42,075 bases of DNA from an uncultured Bacteroidales bacterium (GTDB lineage: Bacteria > Bacteroidota > Bacteroidia > Bacteroidales > UBA932): positions 1 through 42,075 of the forward strand of contig CAJODQ010000015.1 of NCBI GenBank assembly GCA_905233345.1, read 5' to 3'. The notes below the pieces were generated by a model. The model did no database searches and was not told the DNA's origin. It saw nothing but the letters and a program-made list of their open reading frames with translations. Of the stretch, positions 4,101-15,524 are shown piece after piece (the stretch's first letter is position 1; each line of letters begins with the position of its first letter). The translations under genes were made by a program, and so were the position numbers.

Positions 4101-7540
<3,440 letters not shown>

Positions 7541-9902: not shown

Positions 9903-9921
9903 CGCCTTGCAATCTCATCCG

Positions 9922-11706
9922 ATGGAACCGATCAAGCACGAATGCGGCATCGCCATGATCCGGCTGCTCAAGCCGCTTCAGTATTACAAGGAAAAATACG
10001 GTACGGAACTCTATGCGCTGAACAAGCTCTATCTCATGATGGAGAAGCAGCACAACCGCGGGCAGGAAGGCGCCGGCATCGCCAGCGTCAAGATCGTAAC
10101 CGCCCCCGGCCAGGAATTCATGTTCCGTGAGAAATCACTCGGCAAGGACGCCATCACCAACGTCTTTTCCGACGTTCACCGGCAGATCGAAGACACGCCG
10201 GCGAGCGAACAGCCTCCTTTCATCGGTGAGCTCTACATGGGCCACCTCCGCTATTCGACCACGGGCCGGAGCGGCATCAAGTACGTGCATCCGTTCCTGC
10301 GGCGCAACAACTGGAAAGCCAAGAACCTGTGCATCTGCGGCAACTTCAACATGACCAACATCGAAGACGTGTTCCAGATGCTGGCCGAACAGGGACAGTA
10401 CCCGCGCATCAACGCCGACGCCTACATCCTGCTGGAGCTGATGGGACACCGCCTCGACCGCGAGGTGGAGCGCAACTACGTGGAGGCCAAGAAACTGGAA
10501 TTGGAAGGAAAAGACATCACCCACTATATCGACGAACATGTGGAACTGGCCAACGTGCTGCAAACCACCATGCCCCATTTCGACGGTGGCTACGTGATCT
10601 GCGGTCTGACCGGCAGCGGCGAAATGTTCGCCATGCGCGACCCCAACGGCATCCGCCCTGCCTTCTGGTATGCGGACGACGAACTGGTGGCCGTCGCCAG
10701 CGAGCGCCCCGTGCTCCAGACCACTTTCGCCGCCGAAATCGACCAGATCCACGAAGTGCAGCCCGGCCAGGCCTTGATCATCAACGGGCGTCGCGAGCTG
10801 ATGCTCAAGCAGATCATCCAGCCGCGCCGCATGGCCGCCTGCAGCTTCGAACGCATCTACTTCAGCCGCGGCAACGACCGCGACATCCACCGCGAGCGCA
10901 AGCAGCTCGGCTTCCAGCTCCGCGACAGCATCCTCCGGGCCATCGGCCACGACATCGAGCACACCGTATTCTCTTATATTCCGAATACGGCGGAAGTGGC
11001 GTACTACGGCATGGTCGAAGGCATCCGCAGCTTGTATCCGGGCGTACGCGCCGACAAGGTCGTGTCGAAAGACATCAAGCTCCGCACCTTCATCACCGAA
11101 GGCAGCGCCCGCAACGATCTGGCCGGACACGTGTACGACATCACCTACGGGACGCTGACGCCCTATGTCGACAACCTGGTGGTGATCGACGACAGCATCG
11201 TCCGCGGCACCACCCTGCGCGAGAGCATCATCCGCATTCTCGACCGGCTCCACCCGAAGAAGATCGTGATCGTGAGCTCCAGCCCGCAAGTGCGCTACCC
11301 CGACTGCTACGGCATCGACATGTCGCACATGAAAGAGTTCATCGCCTTCCACGCCGCCATAGCACTGCTCAAGGAGAAAGGGATGAACAGCCTGATCGAC
11401 GTGGTCTACCAACAGTGCAAGCAGCAGGAGGACCTGCCGGCCACCAGCTGCCTCAACTATGTCAAGCGGATCTACGACGCATTCACCGACGACCAGATCA
11501 GCCGGAAGATCGTCGAGCTCCTGCGGCCCGACGACATCGGAGCCGAGGTGGAGATTGTCTACCAGTCGCTCGAAGGCCTGCACTACGCCTGCCCGAACCA
11601 TCCGGGAGACTGGTATTTCAGCGGCGACTACCCCACGCCCGGCGGCTACAAGCTGCTGAACCGCGCCTACATTGATTATTACGAGAACGAATATCTGAAA
11701 AAGTGA
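9922..11706 (+). CDS. purF: Amidophosphoribosyltransferase, long Bacteroidota form
   Basis: A 594-aa glutamine PRPP amidotransferase, the committed step of purine synthesis. The N-terminal Ntn glutaminase domain starts after a short propeptide, with Cys8 (EHECGIAM context) as the predicted nucleophile. NRGQEGAGI and the GHLRYSTTG segment form the glutamine site. The PRTase domain contains [13 protein letters not shown] and the PRPP loop [12 protein letters not shown] (residues 420-431). It is about 100 aa longer than the E. coli and B. subtilis enzymes, with extra sequence in the glutaminase domain and a C-terminal extension. The ATG at 9922 was chosen rather than TTG 9907 because it leaves the usual short propeptide and sits downstream of the promoter. 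It overlaps purC by one base (TGATG). Confidence 0.93.
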
Positions 11707-12796: not shown

Positions 12797-13018
12797 ATGA
12801 AGAAAGTATTATTTACCCTGATGATCGCCGCCGGTATCTTCACCCTCGCCAGCTGCTCGAAGAGCTGCGATTGCTCGGCCAGCTGGAATGGCGAAGTCGT
12901 GTACGAAGAATCCATCCAGATGGAAGAAGGTGACAAGTGCTCCGATTTCAACAAGATGGTGAACATTCCCGCCCTCGGTATCAGCGCAGAGCTGAAGTGC
13001 ACGCCGCAGCTTTTCTAA
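12797..13018 (+). CDS. Small Cys-rich lipoprotein, unknown function
   Basis: A 73-aa protein with a clear lipoprotein signal ending LASC (lipid Cys20). The mature ~54-residue part is acidic and contains four further cysteines (Cys24, Cys26, Cys48, Cys68), enough for two disulfides or a small metal site; Cys24 and Cys26 form a CxC. I do not recognise a characterised family. It begins 24 nt after the tRNA and ends 1 nt before the TTG start of a membrane/thioredoxin fusion protein, so the two are almost certainly co-translated. That pairing suggests a redox or disulfide relationship, which is inference. Confidence 0.72.
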   Translation: MKKVLFTLMIAAGIFTLASCSKSCDCSASWNGEVVYEESIQMEEGDKCSDFNKMVNIPALGISAELKCTPQLF

Positions 13019-13019
13019 T

Positions 13020-13907
13020 TTGAAAACAACGCAAATCGTCAAGTATGTATTCCGGGCTCTGCTCGGAATACTTTTTTTATTGTCGGCCACGTCCAAGCTG
13101 ATCGGGATCGATGATTTCGAAATGTACCTGTTCAGTTTCGGCTGGTTCCGGCTTGGCAGCTGCTACCTGCTGGCCCGCCTGGTGATTGCGGCGGAGTATA
13201 CCCTCGGCCTGCTGCTGATTGGCAATCTCCATCCCAAGTTGGCTTTCTGGGGCAGCCTGGCGATGCTGGGTGGTTTCTCGCTCTTCCTGCTGGGGCTGCT
13301 GGTCGCGGGGCGCAACGACAACTGCCACTGCTTCGGCGAATGGGTCGACCTCAACCCCACCCAATCCCTGCTCAAGAACGCCGGGATGCTGGTCCTGCTG
13401 TTGCTGAGCGCAGGTTTGGAGGCTTTCCGCGCGAAGCACAAAGGCCTGTGGCTGTCCCTGGCCTGCATCGTGCCGCTGGCCACGGTGCTGATCGTCTCGC
13501 CGCCCGACAACTGGCGCTACGACAGCTACGCCCGGCATGCGCTGGTCAACGAGCAGGCGCTGCAGGAAGCCCGCGAAGCGGAGATCCTGCCGGCCTCCGT
13601 GGCGGAGGGCGACAAGGTGGTATGCTTCTACAGTCTCAAGTGCCACTTCTGCAAGATGTCAGCCCAGAAGCTGGCGACGCTGCGCCAGCGGGGCGAATTC
13701 GCACAGGCGCCCGTCATCGTGATCTTCGGGCGCGGACAGGATACCAACACGGAGGCTTTCTTCGCTGAGACCGGCCTGGCACCCGACGAAGTGCATTTCA
13801 TCGAGCCCAACGATTTCCTCCGCATCACCAACGGCAGCTTTCCCGTCATCCTCGAGCTGCATGACGGTGCCGTCCTAAAAGCCTACAACTACAGAAATTT
13901 GCACTGA
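13020..13907 (+). CDS. DoxX/MauE-like membrane protein fused to a thioredoxin-like domain (TTG start)
   Basis: A 295-aa fusion protein. Residues 1-145 form about four membrane helices of the DoxX/MauE type and include the pair Cys102-x-Cys104 in NCHCFGEW. A further hydrophobic segment (LWLSLACIVPLATVLIV) precedes a C-terminal thioredoxin-like domain with a CxxC at Cys208/Cys211 (KCHFCKM). This architecture resembles systems in which a membrane quinone-linked protein supplies oxidising or reducing equivalents to a soluble thiol protein. Start: TTG at 13020, 1 nt after the previous stop. The next in-frame ATG (around residue 36) would delete the first helix, and no ATG or GTG lies upstream. The upstream neighbour is a Cys-rich lipoprotein and the downstream genes are an rSAM/lipoprotein pair. 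Confidence 0.82.
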   Translation: MKTTQIVKYVFRALLGILFLLSATSKLIGIDDFEMYLFSFGWFRLGSCYLLARLVIAAEYTLGLLLIGNLHPKLAFWGSLAMLGGFSLFLLGLLVAGRNDNCHCFGEWVDLNPTQSLLKNAGMLVLLLLSAGLEAFRAKHKGLWLSLACIVPLATVLIVSPPDNWRYDSYARHALVNEQALQEAREAEILPASVAEGDKVVCFYSLKCHFCKMSAQKLATLRQRGEFAQAPVIVIFGRGQDTNTEAFFAETGLAPDEVHFIEPNDFLRITNGSFPVILELHDGAVLKAYNYRNLH

Positions 13908-13959: not shown

Positions 13960-14451
13960 ATGCCCCTCCACAAACCCAAACGCATCGGCTTTTTCGCCAT
14001 GCTGCTCGCCCTGCTGGGCATCGGCGGCTGCGGCGAAATCAACTCGGATCCTGAAGGTCTCAATAACATGTGCATGTACGGTACACCCACGGCCCATTAT
14101 TCCGTAAAGGGCCAGGTGACTGATACACAGGGAAATCCGATACCCAACATCAACGTTTCCTTCTATGGCATCTACTACGGAAGCCCCGGTACCCAAGCCG
14201 GCGTTGATCCGTTCGGGGTCAATCTCAAGACCGACAGCAAGGGCGTGTATGAATGGGACAGCCAGCATTTCCCCTATCCACAGGTACGGGTCTTGTTTGA
14301 CGACACGGACGGCCCGGCGAACGGCGGTGAATTCGAAAGCGAGAACACCCTCGTGAACATCACCTTCGTCAAAGACAAGAAAGACAAAAATGTCTGGAAC
14401 TCCGGGAATGCCAAGATCGACATCCCGACCATCAAACTGAGAAAGAAATGA
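13960..14451 (+). CDS. Putative lipoprotein of the rSAM/lipoprotein system
   Basis: A 163-aa predicted lipoprotein (signal with basic n-region KPKR, lipid Cys24 in GIGGC). The conserved segment CMYGTPTAHY (residues 38-47) follows, then a carboxypeptidase-regulatory-like beta sandwich (VKGQVTDTQGNPIPNINVSFYG) ending with a basic tail. I recognise this as the Bacteroidota family that pairs with a dedicated radical SAM enzyme (TIGR04134 as I recall it). The partner is the next gene, overlapping by 4 nt (ATGA). The function and the nature of any modification are unknown. Candidate modified residues lie in the conserved MCMYGTPTAHY stretch, which is inference. Confidence 0.88.
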   Translation: MPLHKPKRIGFFAMLLALLGIGGCGEINSDPEGLNNMCMYGTPTAHYSVKGQVTDTQGNPIPNINVSFYGIYYGSPGTQAGVDPFGVNLKTDSKGVYEWDSQHFPYPQVRVLFDDTDGPANGGEFESENTLVNITFVKDKKDKNVWNSGNAKIDIPTIKLRKK

Positions 14452-15524
14452 CGGGTAAGCACGTCGGCCCCGTCAAGCGCGCGAAACTCGAACTTTTCGC
14501 GAAACTGCAGGACAAGCGCATCGAAGCGCACCAGCTCCGGCAGCTTTTCTGGGAGTGTACGCTGCGCTGCAACGCGGCGTGCCTGCATTGCGGCAGTGAC
14601 TGCCGGGTAAGTTCCGAATTCAAGGACATGCCCGCCGCCGATTTCCTGCGGGTCATCGATTCCCTCACCCCGCACGTCGATCCACACACCACTTTCATCA
14701 TCTTCACGGGCGGCGAGCCGCTCATGCGGCGAGACCTCGAAAAGGTGGGCCGGGCGCTCTACGACCGCGAGTATCCCTGGGGCATGGTGACCAACGGCGT
14801 GCTGCTCGACCGCCGGCGTTTCGACGCGCTCCTGGCCAGCGGCATCCACACCGCCACGGTCAGCCTCGACGGTTTCAAAGAGGAACACACCTGGCTTCGC
14901 GGCCATCCGCAGGCCTTCGAGAACGCCTCGAACGCCATCCGGATGATGGCGCAGGAGCCCGGTTTCATCTTCGACGTGGTGACCTGCGTCAACCAGCGCA
15001 GTCTCCCCCGCCTCGCTGAATTCAAGGAGTATCTCATTTCGCTCGGTGTCCGCGCTTGGCGCATCTTCACCATCTTCCCGGTGGGGCGTGCGAAGCAATA
15101 TCCGGAGCTCCAGCTCAGCAACGAGCAGTTTACGCAAGTCATGGATTTCATCGTGGCTACGCGCAAGGAGGGTCGCATCGCGCTGAACTTTGCCTGCGAG
15201 GGCTTCCTGGGTGGCTTCGAAAACGAAGTCCGGGACTCGTTCTACCACTGCGAGGCCGGCGTATCGGTGGCCTCGGTCCTGGCCGACGGCTCTATCTCCG
15301 CCTGCCCGAGCATCCGCTCGAAATTCTACCAGGGCAACATCTACCAGGATGATTTCTGGACGGTCTGGAACAATCGTTTCGAGATGTACCGCGACCGCAA
15401 CTGGGCCCGCCAGGGCCTCTGCGCCGACTGCAAGATGTTCCGCTACTGCCGCGGCAACGGCATGCATCTCCACGACGAGGAAGGCAAACTCCTTGTCTGT
15501 CATTACAACCGCTTGGTCAAATAA
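14448..15524 (+). CDS. Radical SAM/SPASM-type enzyme of the rSAM/lipoprotein system
   Basis: A 358-aa radical SAM protein. The [4Fe-4S] motif CNAACLHC gives Cys41, Cys45 and Cys48, and TGGEP (87-91) is the SAM amino-group site. The C-terminal part matches the SPASM pattern: Cys268-x12-Gly281-x4-Cys286, then Cys325-x2-Cys328-x5-Cys334 and Cys351. The Cys normally four residues after Cys334 is glycine (Gly338), so one auxiliary-cluster ligand differs from the textbook pattern. It belongs to the family I know as TIGR04133, always next to the lipoprotein encoded just upstream. It acts in the cytosol, so any modification would precede export of the lipoprotein. Substrate and reaction are undescribed as far as I know. 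Confidence 0.9.
   Translation: MTGKHVGPVKRAKLELFAKLQDKRIEAHQLRQLFWECTLRCNAACLHCGSDCRVSSEFKDMPAADFLRVIDSLTPHVDPHTTFIIFTGGEPLMRRDLEKVGRALYDREYPWGMVTNGVLLDRRRFDALLASGIHTATVSLDGFKEEHTWLRGHPQAFENASNAIRMMAQEPGFIFDVVTCVNQRSLPRLAEFKEYLISLGVRAWRIFTIFPVGRAKQYPELQLSNEQFTQVMDFIVATRKEGRIALNFACEGFLGGFENEVRDSFYHCEAGVSVASVLADGSISACPSIRSKFYQGNIYQDDFWTVWNNRFEMYRDRNWARQGLCADCKMFRYCRGNGMHLHDEEGKLLVCHYNRLVK

Follow-up and report, generated by a model that had tools for sequence, protein, structure and literature searches.

A SPASM radical SAM enzyme and its XYGxP lipoproteins in Bacteroidales: a candidate lipoprotein splicease

The gene pair and its family

The window, a stretch of 42,075 nucleotides on contig 15 of an uncultured Bacteroidales genome (CAJODQ010000015.1, assembly GCA_905233345.1), carries a lipoprotein gene followed by a gene for a radical SAM enzyme, both on the forward strand. 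As had been predicted from the sequence, the two ORFs overlap by 4 nt, at the ATGA of positions 14448-14451. The features of the pair are as follows.

13960-14451, + strand: lipoprotein, the proposed substrate, TIGR04134, 163 aa (profile match)
13960-14031, + strand: signal peptide and lipobox with Cys24 (IGGC), read from the sequence
14074-14088, + strand: proposed modification site M39-Y40-G41-T42-P43 (XYGxP), from motif enrichment in relatives and its presence in 19 of 21 unlinked copies
14089-14439, + strand: predicted beta-sandwich domain, residues 44-160 (AlphaFold model and Foldseek)
14448-15524, + strand: radical SAM/SPASM enzyme, TIGR04133, 358 aa (profile match, AlphaFold and Foldseek)
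14568-14591, + strand: radical SAM cluster motif C41-x3-C45-x2-C48, the three Cys present in 53 of 53 enzymes
15195-15197, + strand: Cys250, invariant in TIGR04133 (53 of 53) and absent in six of seven TIGR04103-like relatives
15249-15500, + strand: SPASM region C268..C286..C325-x2-C328-x5-C334..C351 (Pfam and 53-row alignment)
15459-15467, + strand: G338-M339-H340, a small residue replacing the Cys of CX3C, then an invariant His (alignment)

Profile searches bore out the original prediction that these genes belong to the Bacteroidota rSAM/lipoprotein system: the lipoprotein scored 91 bits against TIGR04134 (curated cut-off 39.8) and the enzyme 590.4 bits against TIGR04133 (curated cut-off 425). 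The same gene order is annotated in Parabacteroides distasonis and Treponema saccharophilum, the pair also occurs in records of P. distasonis and Phocaeicola massiliensis, and TIGR04133 members from rumen and faecal MAGs are among the matches listed. Both models (rSAM_w_lipo and lipo_with_rSAM) are of the ‘hypoth_equivalog’ type, and NCBI names the pair and assigns it no function. Family scores together with the co-occurrence described below rule out a chance pairing and confirm TIGR04133/TIGR04134 as a genuine gene pair. In Pfam, the enzyme matches Radical_SAM and SPASM (34.1 bits for SPASM, above the cut-off of 21.5), and the lipoprotein gives matches to CarboxypepD_reg and Big_1 alone, both below cut-off. 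The AlphaFold model of the enzyme (mean pLDDT 93.9) begins with a helix, with no signal peptide apparent, and BlsE, SkfB, SuiB and PqqE are among its best Foldseek matches.

The window's genome (2.3 Mb in 68 contigs, 89.4% complete) holds another TIGR04133 enzyme (contig 19) and two more TIGR04134 lipoproteins (contigs 11 and 12). The second enzyme (contig 19:34318-35364; L064 3035-4377) is diverged, at 458.6 bits, and adjoins a tiny lipoprotein, ...FVFQACYGTPPGYP, in which YGTP directly follows the lipid Cys; this parallel subfamily of CYGTP type is present in many related genomes. Upstream of the pair in the window lie a small lipoprotein containing Cys (12797-13018) and, next to it, a MauE/DoxX-thioredoxin-like protein (13020-13907). 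Both were ruled out as parts of the system. Across L064-L103, a set of 40 loci of which 38 come from the window's genus, 13 hold ORFs similar to those of 12797-13907 (phmmer, E ≤ 1e-5); none of 57 further loci does. At 9907-11706 the window also encodes a PurF-like protein of 599 aa that scores merely 136.2 bits against PurF (cut-off 350).

A Tyr-Gly motif shared by the neighbouring lipoproteins

We scanned 97 loci, a sample in that the named relatives among them are the best 80 of 480; a recognisable enzyme was present in 94 (62 after thinning at 75% identity) and an ORF similar to the window lipoprotein in only 28 (phmmer), so many of the neighbours are not obvious homologues of that protein. 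Enrichment was analysed in same-strand lipobox ORFs ending at most 700 nt upstream of the enzyme (48 thinned loci gave 62 such lipoproteins), covering every dipeptide with no motif preset and using 300 shuffles. YG proved to be the top enriched dipeptide, observed 52 times against 15.2 expected and a shuffle maximum of 25 in these 62 neighbouring lipoproteins, which still include relatives, up to several per locus. The top gapped pair was Tyr three residues ahead of Pro (47 against 10.9 expected in the same 62). When loci were left unthinned for relatedness, YG.P was present in 79 of 118 near lipobox ORFs against 9 of 158 far ones; among the 118 near ORFs, FG.P and WG.P did not occur and HG.P occurred in three.

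Scored by rule in the thinned loci of this sample (best 80 of 480 included), a lipobox ORF within 2.5 kb carried YG in 49 of 62 cases and YG.{1,2}P in 48 of 62. Inspection by eye added nine loci with an XYG protein (L105, L124, L135, L143, L144, L145, L155, L158 and L162), a contig edge cuts the locus L075, and four of the 62 (L092, L103, L132 and L146) had no motif protein nearby.

In 74 instances of YG.{1,2}P, the residue before Tyr (X) was Met in 20, Glu in 19, Cys in 13, Lys in seven, Leu in six, Val in three, Ile in two and one of four other residues once each. Position +2 from Tyr was similarly mixed (T25, V19, P9, C7, G5, M3, S2, A2, H1, Q1). Pro stood at +3 in 64 of the 74 and at +4 in the rest, the instances having been selected for Pro at one or other position, and cases such as YGPVQ and YGVREP show that Pro at +3 is not universal. 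The distance of Tyr from the lipid Cys ranged from 1 to 97 residues, and no constant Cys or other crosslink donor was found around the motif in the 74 instances. The shared unit is X-Tyr-Gly-x-Pro, represented in the window lipoprotein by M39-Y40-G41-T42-P43. The conserved segment originally proposed, MCMYGTPTAHY, is indeed present at residues 37-47, but what is conserved is XYGxP and not the full 11 residues. The proposal that the enzyme acts on this segment after the lipid anchor gains from the enrichment, which leaves Tyr-Gly well supported as the target. An alignment in which Y40, G41 and P43 are invariant provides no evidence here, because its rows were chosen to contain YG.P.

Some motif proteins have fewer than 70 residues and an acidic tail (those at L133, L153 and L159 among them) and others contain repeats (L117, L142, L144 and L148), which means that the common element does not include the beta-sandwich. 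In the AlphaFold model of the window lipoprotein, residues 21-40 are placed with low confidence (block means 53 and 54), residue 44 opens the first strand and the sandwich has a mean pLDDT of 83.2. The proposed site M39-P43 thus sits at the edge of the low-confidence stretch, which fits an accessible site. Foldseek matched the sandwich to intradiol-dioxygenase-type beta-sandwiches with TM-scores below 0.5, a predicted likeness that we read as one of fold alone. Six loci (L084, L085, L087, L089, L095 and L098) have upstream lipoproteins lacking XYGxP after the lipid Cys, with starts such as GDIVLP, GNLVFMD, GEVVLLD and GNIVLPD; these are perhaps unmodified partners.

The motif composition bears on what the enzyme might do. 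Triceptide and cyclophane maturases form a three-residue link between an aromatic residue and a side-chain-bearing residue at +2; a family-wide cyclophane of this kind is ruled out here by Gly at +2 in five of 74 instances, the window's own +2 residue being Thr. Sactipeptide and ranthipeptide maturases form thioethers from a conserved donor Cys in the substrate core. A crosslink to a conserved Cys, such as C38 of CMYGTP, is likewise ruled out, since X is Cys in 13 of 74 instances and +2 in seven of 74, and C38 precedes X. A looser version is that the enzyme crosslinks YGxP without loss of tyramine, through a cyclophane or ether loop that ties Tyr, by its ring or its phenol oxygen, to Gly, Pro or the +2 residue. 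SPASM enzymes often form such crosslinks, the maturases SkfB and SuiB are among the Foldseek neighbours, and Tyr and the frequent Pro, as the top enriched gapped pair, could be the partners. We nevertheless consider this unlikely: the variable +2 position, with its five Gly, means that a side-chain link there cannot be general, Pro at +3 is missing from some of even these chosen instances, the conserved Gly has no obvious need in a Tyr-Pro link and the precursors of the nearest relatives also contain XYG, as described below.

Linkage and distribution

The genome set comprised 61 genomes, the window's own and 60 relatives. TIGR04133 was found at E ≤ 1e-90 in 38 of these, 36 of them over the cut-off, and TIGR04134 gave 49 matches over cut-off, in 23 genomes. 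All 23 also carry the enzyme (Fisher p 4e-7, which is not a true probability because the genomes are related), and among the 23 genomes without an enzyme match none has a TIGR04134 lipoprotein over cut-off. The enzyme is rare across the phylum, present in three of 395 genomes including the window's own (E ≤ 1e-80).

Strict linkage of the two genes, whose absence had been named as grounds for abandoning the original prediction, does not hold: 28 of the 49 lipoproteins lie within 2 kb of a same-strand enzyme gene and 21 do not. Of the 21 unlinked lipoproteins, 19 keep XYG[TSVC]P, the two without YG being G033:C1 and G036:C7a. This fits modification in trans, although the 19 of 21 is weaker than an independent test would be, since the TIGR04134 model used to find the proteins may itself favour the motif. 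XYGxP goes beyond the TIGR04134 description, occurring both in unlinked lipoproteins and in neighbours unlike the window lipoprotein. Nine of the 23 below-cut-off matches were inspected. Those from enzyme-bearing genomes have XYGxP after the lipobox in one of seven cases; of the two from genomes without an enzyme match, one (G025) lacks YG and the other (G057) has CYGTP and, on contig 80 (L227), adjoins a broken enzyme remnant near the contig end.

These data also speak to the idea that the motif serves in sorting or docking of the lipoproteins and that the enzyme modifies something else, such as another residue, a lipid or a sugar. Lipoprotein sorting signals sit just after the lipidated Cys, as the motif often nearly does and, in the CYGTP subfamily, does exactly. 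We regard this reading as very improbable given the range of 1 to 97 residues between Tyr and Cys, the repetition of the motif within several proteins and the absence of over-cut-off lipoproteins from all 23 enzyme-less genomes.

Relationship to splicease-type enzymes

An X-Tyr-Gly motif beside a SPASM enzyme recalls the PlpX-type spliceases, whose family we take to be TIGR04103. The window enzyme scores 113.7 bits against this model, below the cut-off of 725, and TIGR04103 is not singled out by that score, AhbD reaching 121 and NirJ2 114.4. Its identity to seven TIGR04103-like enzymes is 24-29%. In the reverse direction, five TIGR04103-like proteins were scanned. With four of them (L193, L195, L196 and L199) only TIGR04103 and TIGR03913 score above TIGR04133, which comes fourth with the remaining one (L198) and ninth or eleventh with three AhbD proteins.

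Two trees were built, with rows chosen by searches with these families and with PlpX itself not among the sequences. In the first (64 enzymes), a branch with 100/99 support separates TIGR04133 (21) and TIGR04103-like enzymes (7) from 36 others. The second (53 enzymes) included MftC, TIGR04053, TIGR04347, NirJ and plasmid enzymes and again placed TIGR04133 with the TIGR04103/TIGR03913-type enzymes, 26 against 27 across a 100/99 branch, with TIGR04133 as its own clade (100/99). An AU test on this tree rejected (p 8e-27) a clade restricted to the 24 named rows, since enzymes from Agathobacter and Tropicibacter fall inside it.

A ranking of plasmid enzymes, which unlike the tree rows were not picked by family searches, gave the same picture. 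By tblastn of the window enzyme against 72,556 plasmid records (E ≤ 1e-8), 39 records match: three of TIGR04133 type come first, followed by seven (97 to 127 bits) identical with the seven found by a TIGR03913/TIGR04103-type query. The next match is a Paenibacillus enzyme (95 bits) from the other side of the second tree, and the remainder, at no more than 84 bits, comprise TIGR04347, MftC, TIGR04053, NirJ and others. Together, these sequence comparisons show that TIGR04133 is related to the TIGR04103 and TIGR03913 enzymes.

In published accounts, the PlpXY splicease excises tyramine at X-Tyr-Gly and leaves a ketoamide; its natural sites are MYG and LYG, and tags derived from PlpA2 read PIRPLYGLPI or PIRPGYGLPI (PMC10533398, PMC11002830). 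PlpX is assigned there to IPR026482 (PMC11002830) and works with PlpY (PMC11002830, PMC10373908). Most placements of the tags in FtsZ were left unmodified by PlpXY, according to PMC10533398, so YG alone was insufficient there. This literature also attributes protease inhibition to the resulting beta-residues (PMC10373908, citing Scott 2022; PMC11117315) and credits Scott 2022 with 939 predicted systems (PMC10533398).

The window system resembles PlpXY in having X-Tyr-Gly in the lipoprotein (M39-Y40-G41), a SPASM radical SAM enzyme and a family placed on the same side of the 100/99 branch as the TIGR04103-type enzymes. It differs in its proposed substrate, a lipoprotein with signal peptide and beta-sandwich rather than a Nif11/NHLP-type precursor, and in its SPASM region, where TIGR04133 lacks Cys at 338 and has invariant Cys250 and His340. 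It differs too in the partner: in contrast to PlpX with PlpY, neither the window enzyme (contig 15) nor the second enzyme (contig 19) has a PqqD-type gene nearby as judged by PF05402 only, the two PF05402 matches in the genome being on contigs 1 and 25.

Substrates beside the sister-group enzymes

Several relatives also have an XYG protein next door. A Nostoc precursor, ...RGSIALYGLPPELF (ending LYGLPPELF), adjoins an enzyme annotated ‘nif11-class peptide radical SAM maturase 3’, presumably the family of PlpX. At L198, in a genome of the same order as the window's, a 214-aa ORF (6415-7059) in which five KYGYPC repeats precede a last KYGYPGC, making six KYGYP, lies beside a TIGR04103-like enzyme. 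LYGTPP adjoins the L196 enzyme, MYGTG ends an unannotated ORF beside the Agathobacter enzyme, and PYG or LYG occurs in DUF1843 mini-proteins of L193, L194, Azospirillum and Aureibacter. No clear XYG neighbour was seen at L195, L197 or L199, and no clear precursor beside the Tropicibacter enzyme. On the Tropicibacter oceani plasmid (L234), the gene row of the related enzyme also includes another radical SAM protein, a phosphotransferase and two peptidases, one trypsin-like and one M23.

The pairing of a TIGR03913 GDL-motif maturase with DUF1843 proteins is thus close to the window system in that the enzymes share a clade with TIGR04133 and several mini-proteins start with PYG or LYG. Unlike the window lipoprotein, the mini-proteins have no lipobox, and some copies have YA (two of three in Aureibacter) or lack the N-terminal motif (one of two in Azospirillum). 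No activity for this pair was found in the literature consulted. The mycofactocin enzyme MftC, which acts on the Val-Tyr at the C-terminus of its peptide, is more distant, at no more than 79 bits against the window enzyme in the plasmid search and on the other side of the second tree. The likeness is that it is a radical SAM enzyme acting on tyrosine, as stated in PMC8326336.

An altered SPASM region

The original prediction had drawn attention to Cys41, Cys45 and Cys48, to most of the SPASM cysteines and to Gly338 in place of Cys. These residues are as described (C268, C286, C325, C328, C334, C351 and G338), and an alignment of 53 TIGR04133 enzymes, compared with seven TIGR04103-like relatives, shows that the substitution is family-wide. 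C41, C45, C48, C250, C268, C286, C325, C328, C334, G336 and H340 are invariant in all 53, and C351 is present in 51, with two gaps. Position 338, where we would assume the last Cys of the SPASM CX3C, is Gly in 43, Ala in seven, Ser in two, Pro in one and Cys in none of the 53. In the seven relatives position 338 is always Cys and position 340 never His; Cys250 occurs in one of them (L111). C37, C52 and C180 are kept in 49, 52 and 52 of the 53 enzymes.

A SPASM domain with two full auxiliary clusters carries a seven-Cys motif; the window enzyme has six, with Gly at 338. From the alignment, one ligand Cys appears to have been lost in step with the gain of two invariant potential ligands, Cys250 and His340. 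Of the two possibilities raised originally, an unusual ligand or an open coordination site, a swapped ligand set built on these residues is no worse a fit than an open site.

The same changes suggest a further alternative, in which an enzyme of splicease ancestry acts on the Tyr-Gly motif by other chemistry, such as another C-C or C-N cleavage or a backbone oxidation, and yields a different product because its SPASM residues have changed. The lack of Cys338, which seven of seven relatives have, and the presence of Cys250 and His340 in 53 of 53 members would suit this, as would the separate TIGR04133 clade (100/99). Changes in auxiliary clusters need not alter the reaction, and the sister group has the same motif, down to YGxP in the Nostoc precursor; we rate this alternative as doubtful, a shade below the crosslink.

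A proposed mechanism

On balance we lean towards a reaction in which the lipoprotein loses tyramine before it is exported and keeps, near the anchor, a ketoamide that perhaps serves as a tethered protease inhibitor. The chemistry left open by the original prediction would thereby acquire a specific candidate. In detail, the TIGR04133 enzyme would be a splicease-like radical SAM protein acting in the cytoplasm, ahead of export and lipidation, on the flexible stretch between lipobox and beta-sandwich, and would remove tyramine at Tyr40. The product would be a lipid-anchored lipoprotein that holds an electrophilic ketoamide near the membrane. Its most plausible role would be that of a tethered inhibitor of serine or cysteine proteases, with P1 preference depending on the identity of X (Met, Glu, Cys, Lys, Leu and others). 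Lipoproteins whose genes lie elsewhere would be further substrates of this enzyme, in trans. The protease-inhibitor role is the least supported of these steps.

The variability of X across the 74 instances, as in XYG, counts in favour of the splicease reading. Against it we count the 24-29% identity, the TIGR04103 score of 113.7 bits, the loss of Cys at 338 and the lack of a PqqD-type neighbour, along with the loci and the TIGR04134 lipoproteins without a motif, the sister-group neighbours without XYG, HG.P in three of 118 near ORFs and the failed FtsZ tags. A more extended version, to which we would give slightly less than an even chance, is that TIGR04133 is a lipoprotein-dedicated splicease of Bacteroidales and some members of other phyla. 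Needing no PqqD-type partner, and with a Cys250/His340 set in place of one SPASM ligand Cys, it would cut tyramine from the XYGxP of numerous lipoproteins, both in cis and in trans, and the ketoamide lipoproteins would be displayed on the envelope as protease inhibitors or covalent traps.

Novelty and implications

In the open literature, outside which most subscription papers including Scott 2022 fall, we found no paper on the TIGR04133/TIGR04134 family and none joining at least three of the terms splicease, spliceotide, lipoprotein and Bacteroid. The YG enrichment and XYGxP unit, the link to the splicease motif, the tree grouping and the family-wide Cys-less position 338 with Cys250 and His340 appear to be new, with the reservation that the Scott 2022 survey may already cover them.

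A family listed as a hypothetical equivalog now has a hypothesis that one experiment could address, a loss of approximately 135.07 Da at a named tyrosine. If it is true, backbone tyramine excision is not confined to peptide natural products and is used on Bacteroidales lipoproteins, and the family could yield partner-free spliceases for protein labelling. The enzyme may arm surface proteins with a reactive group; if the reading is correct, this would point to a covalent weapon or shield on the surface of the bacterium.
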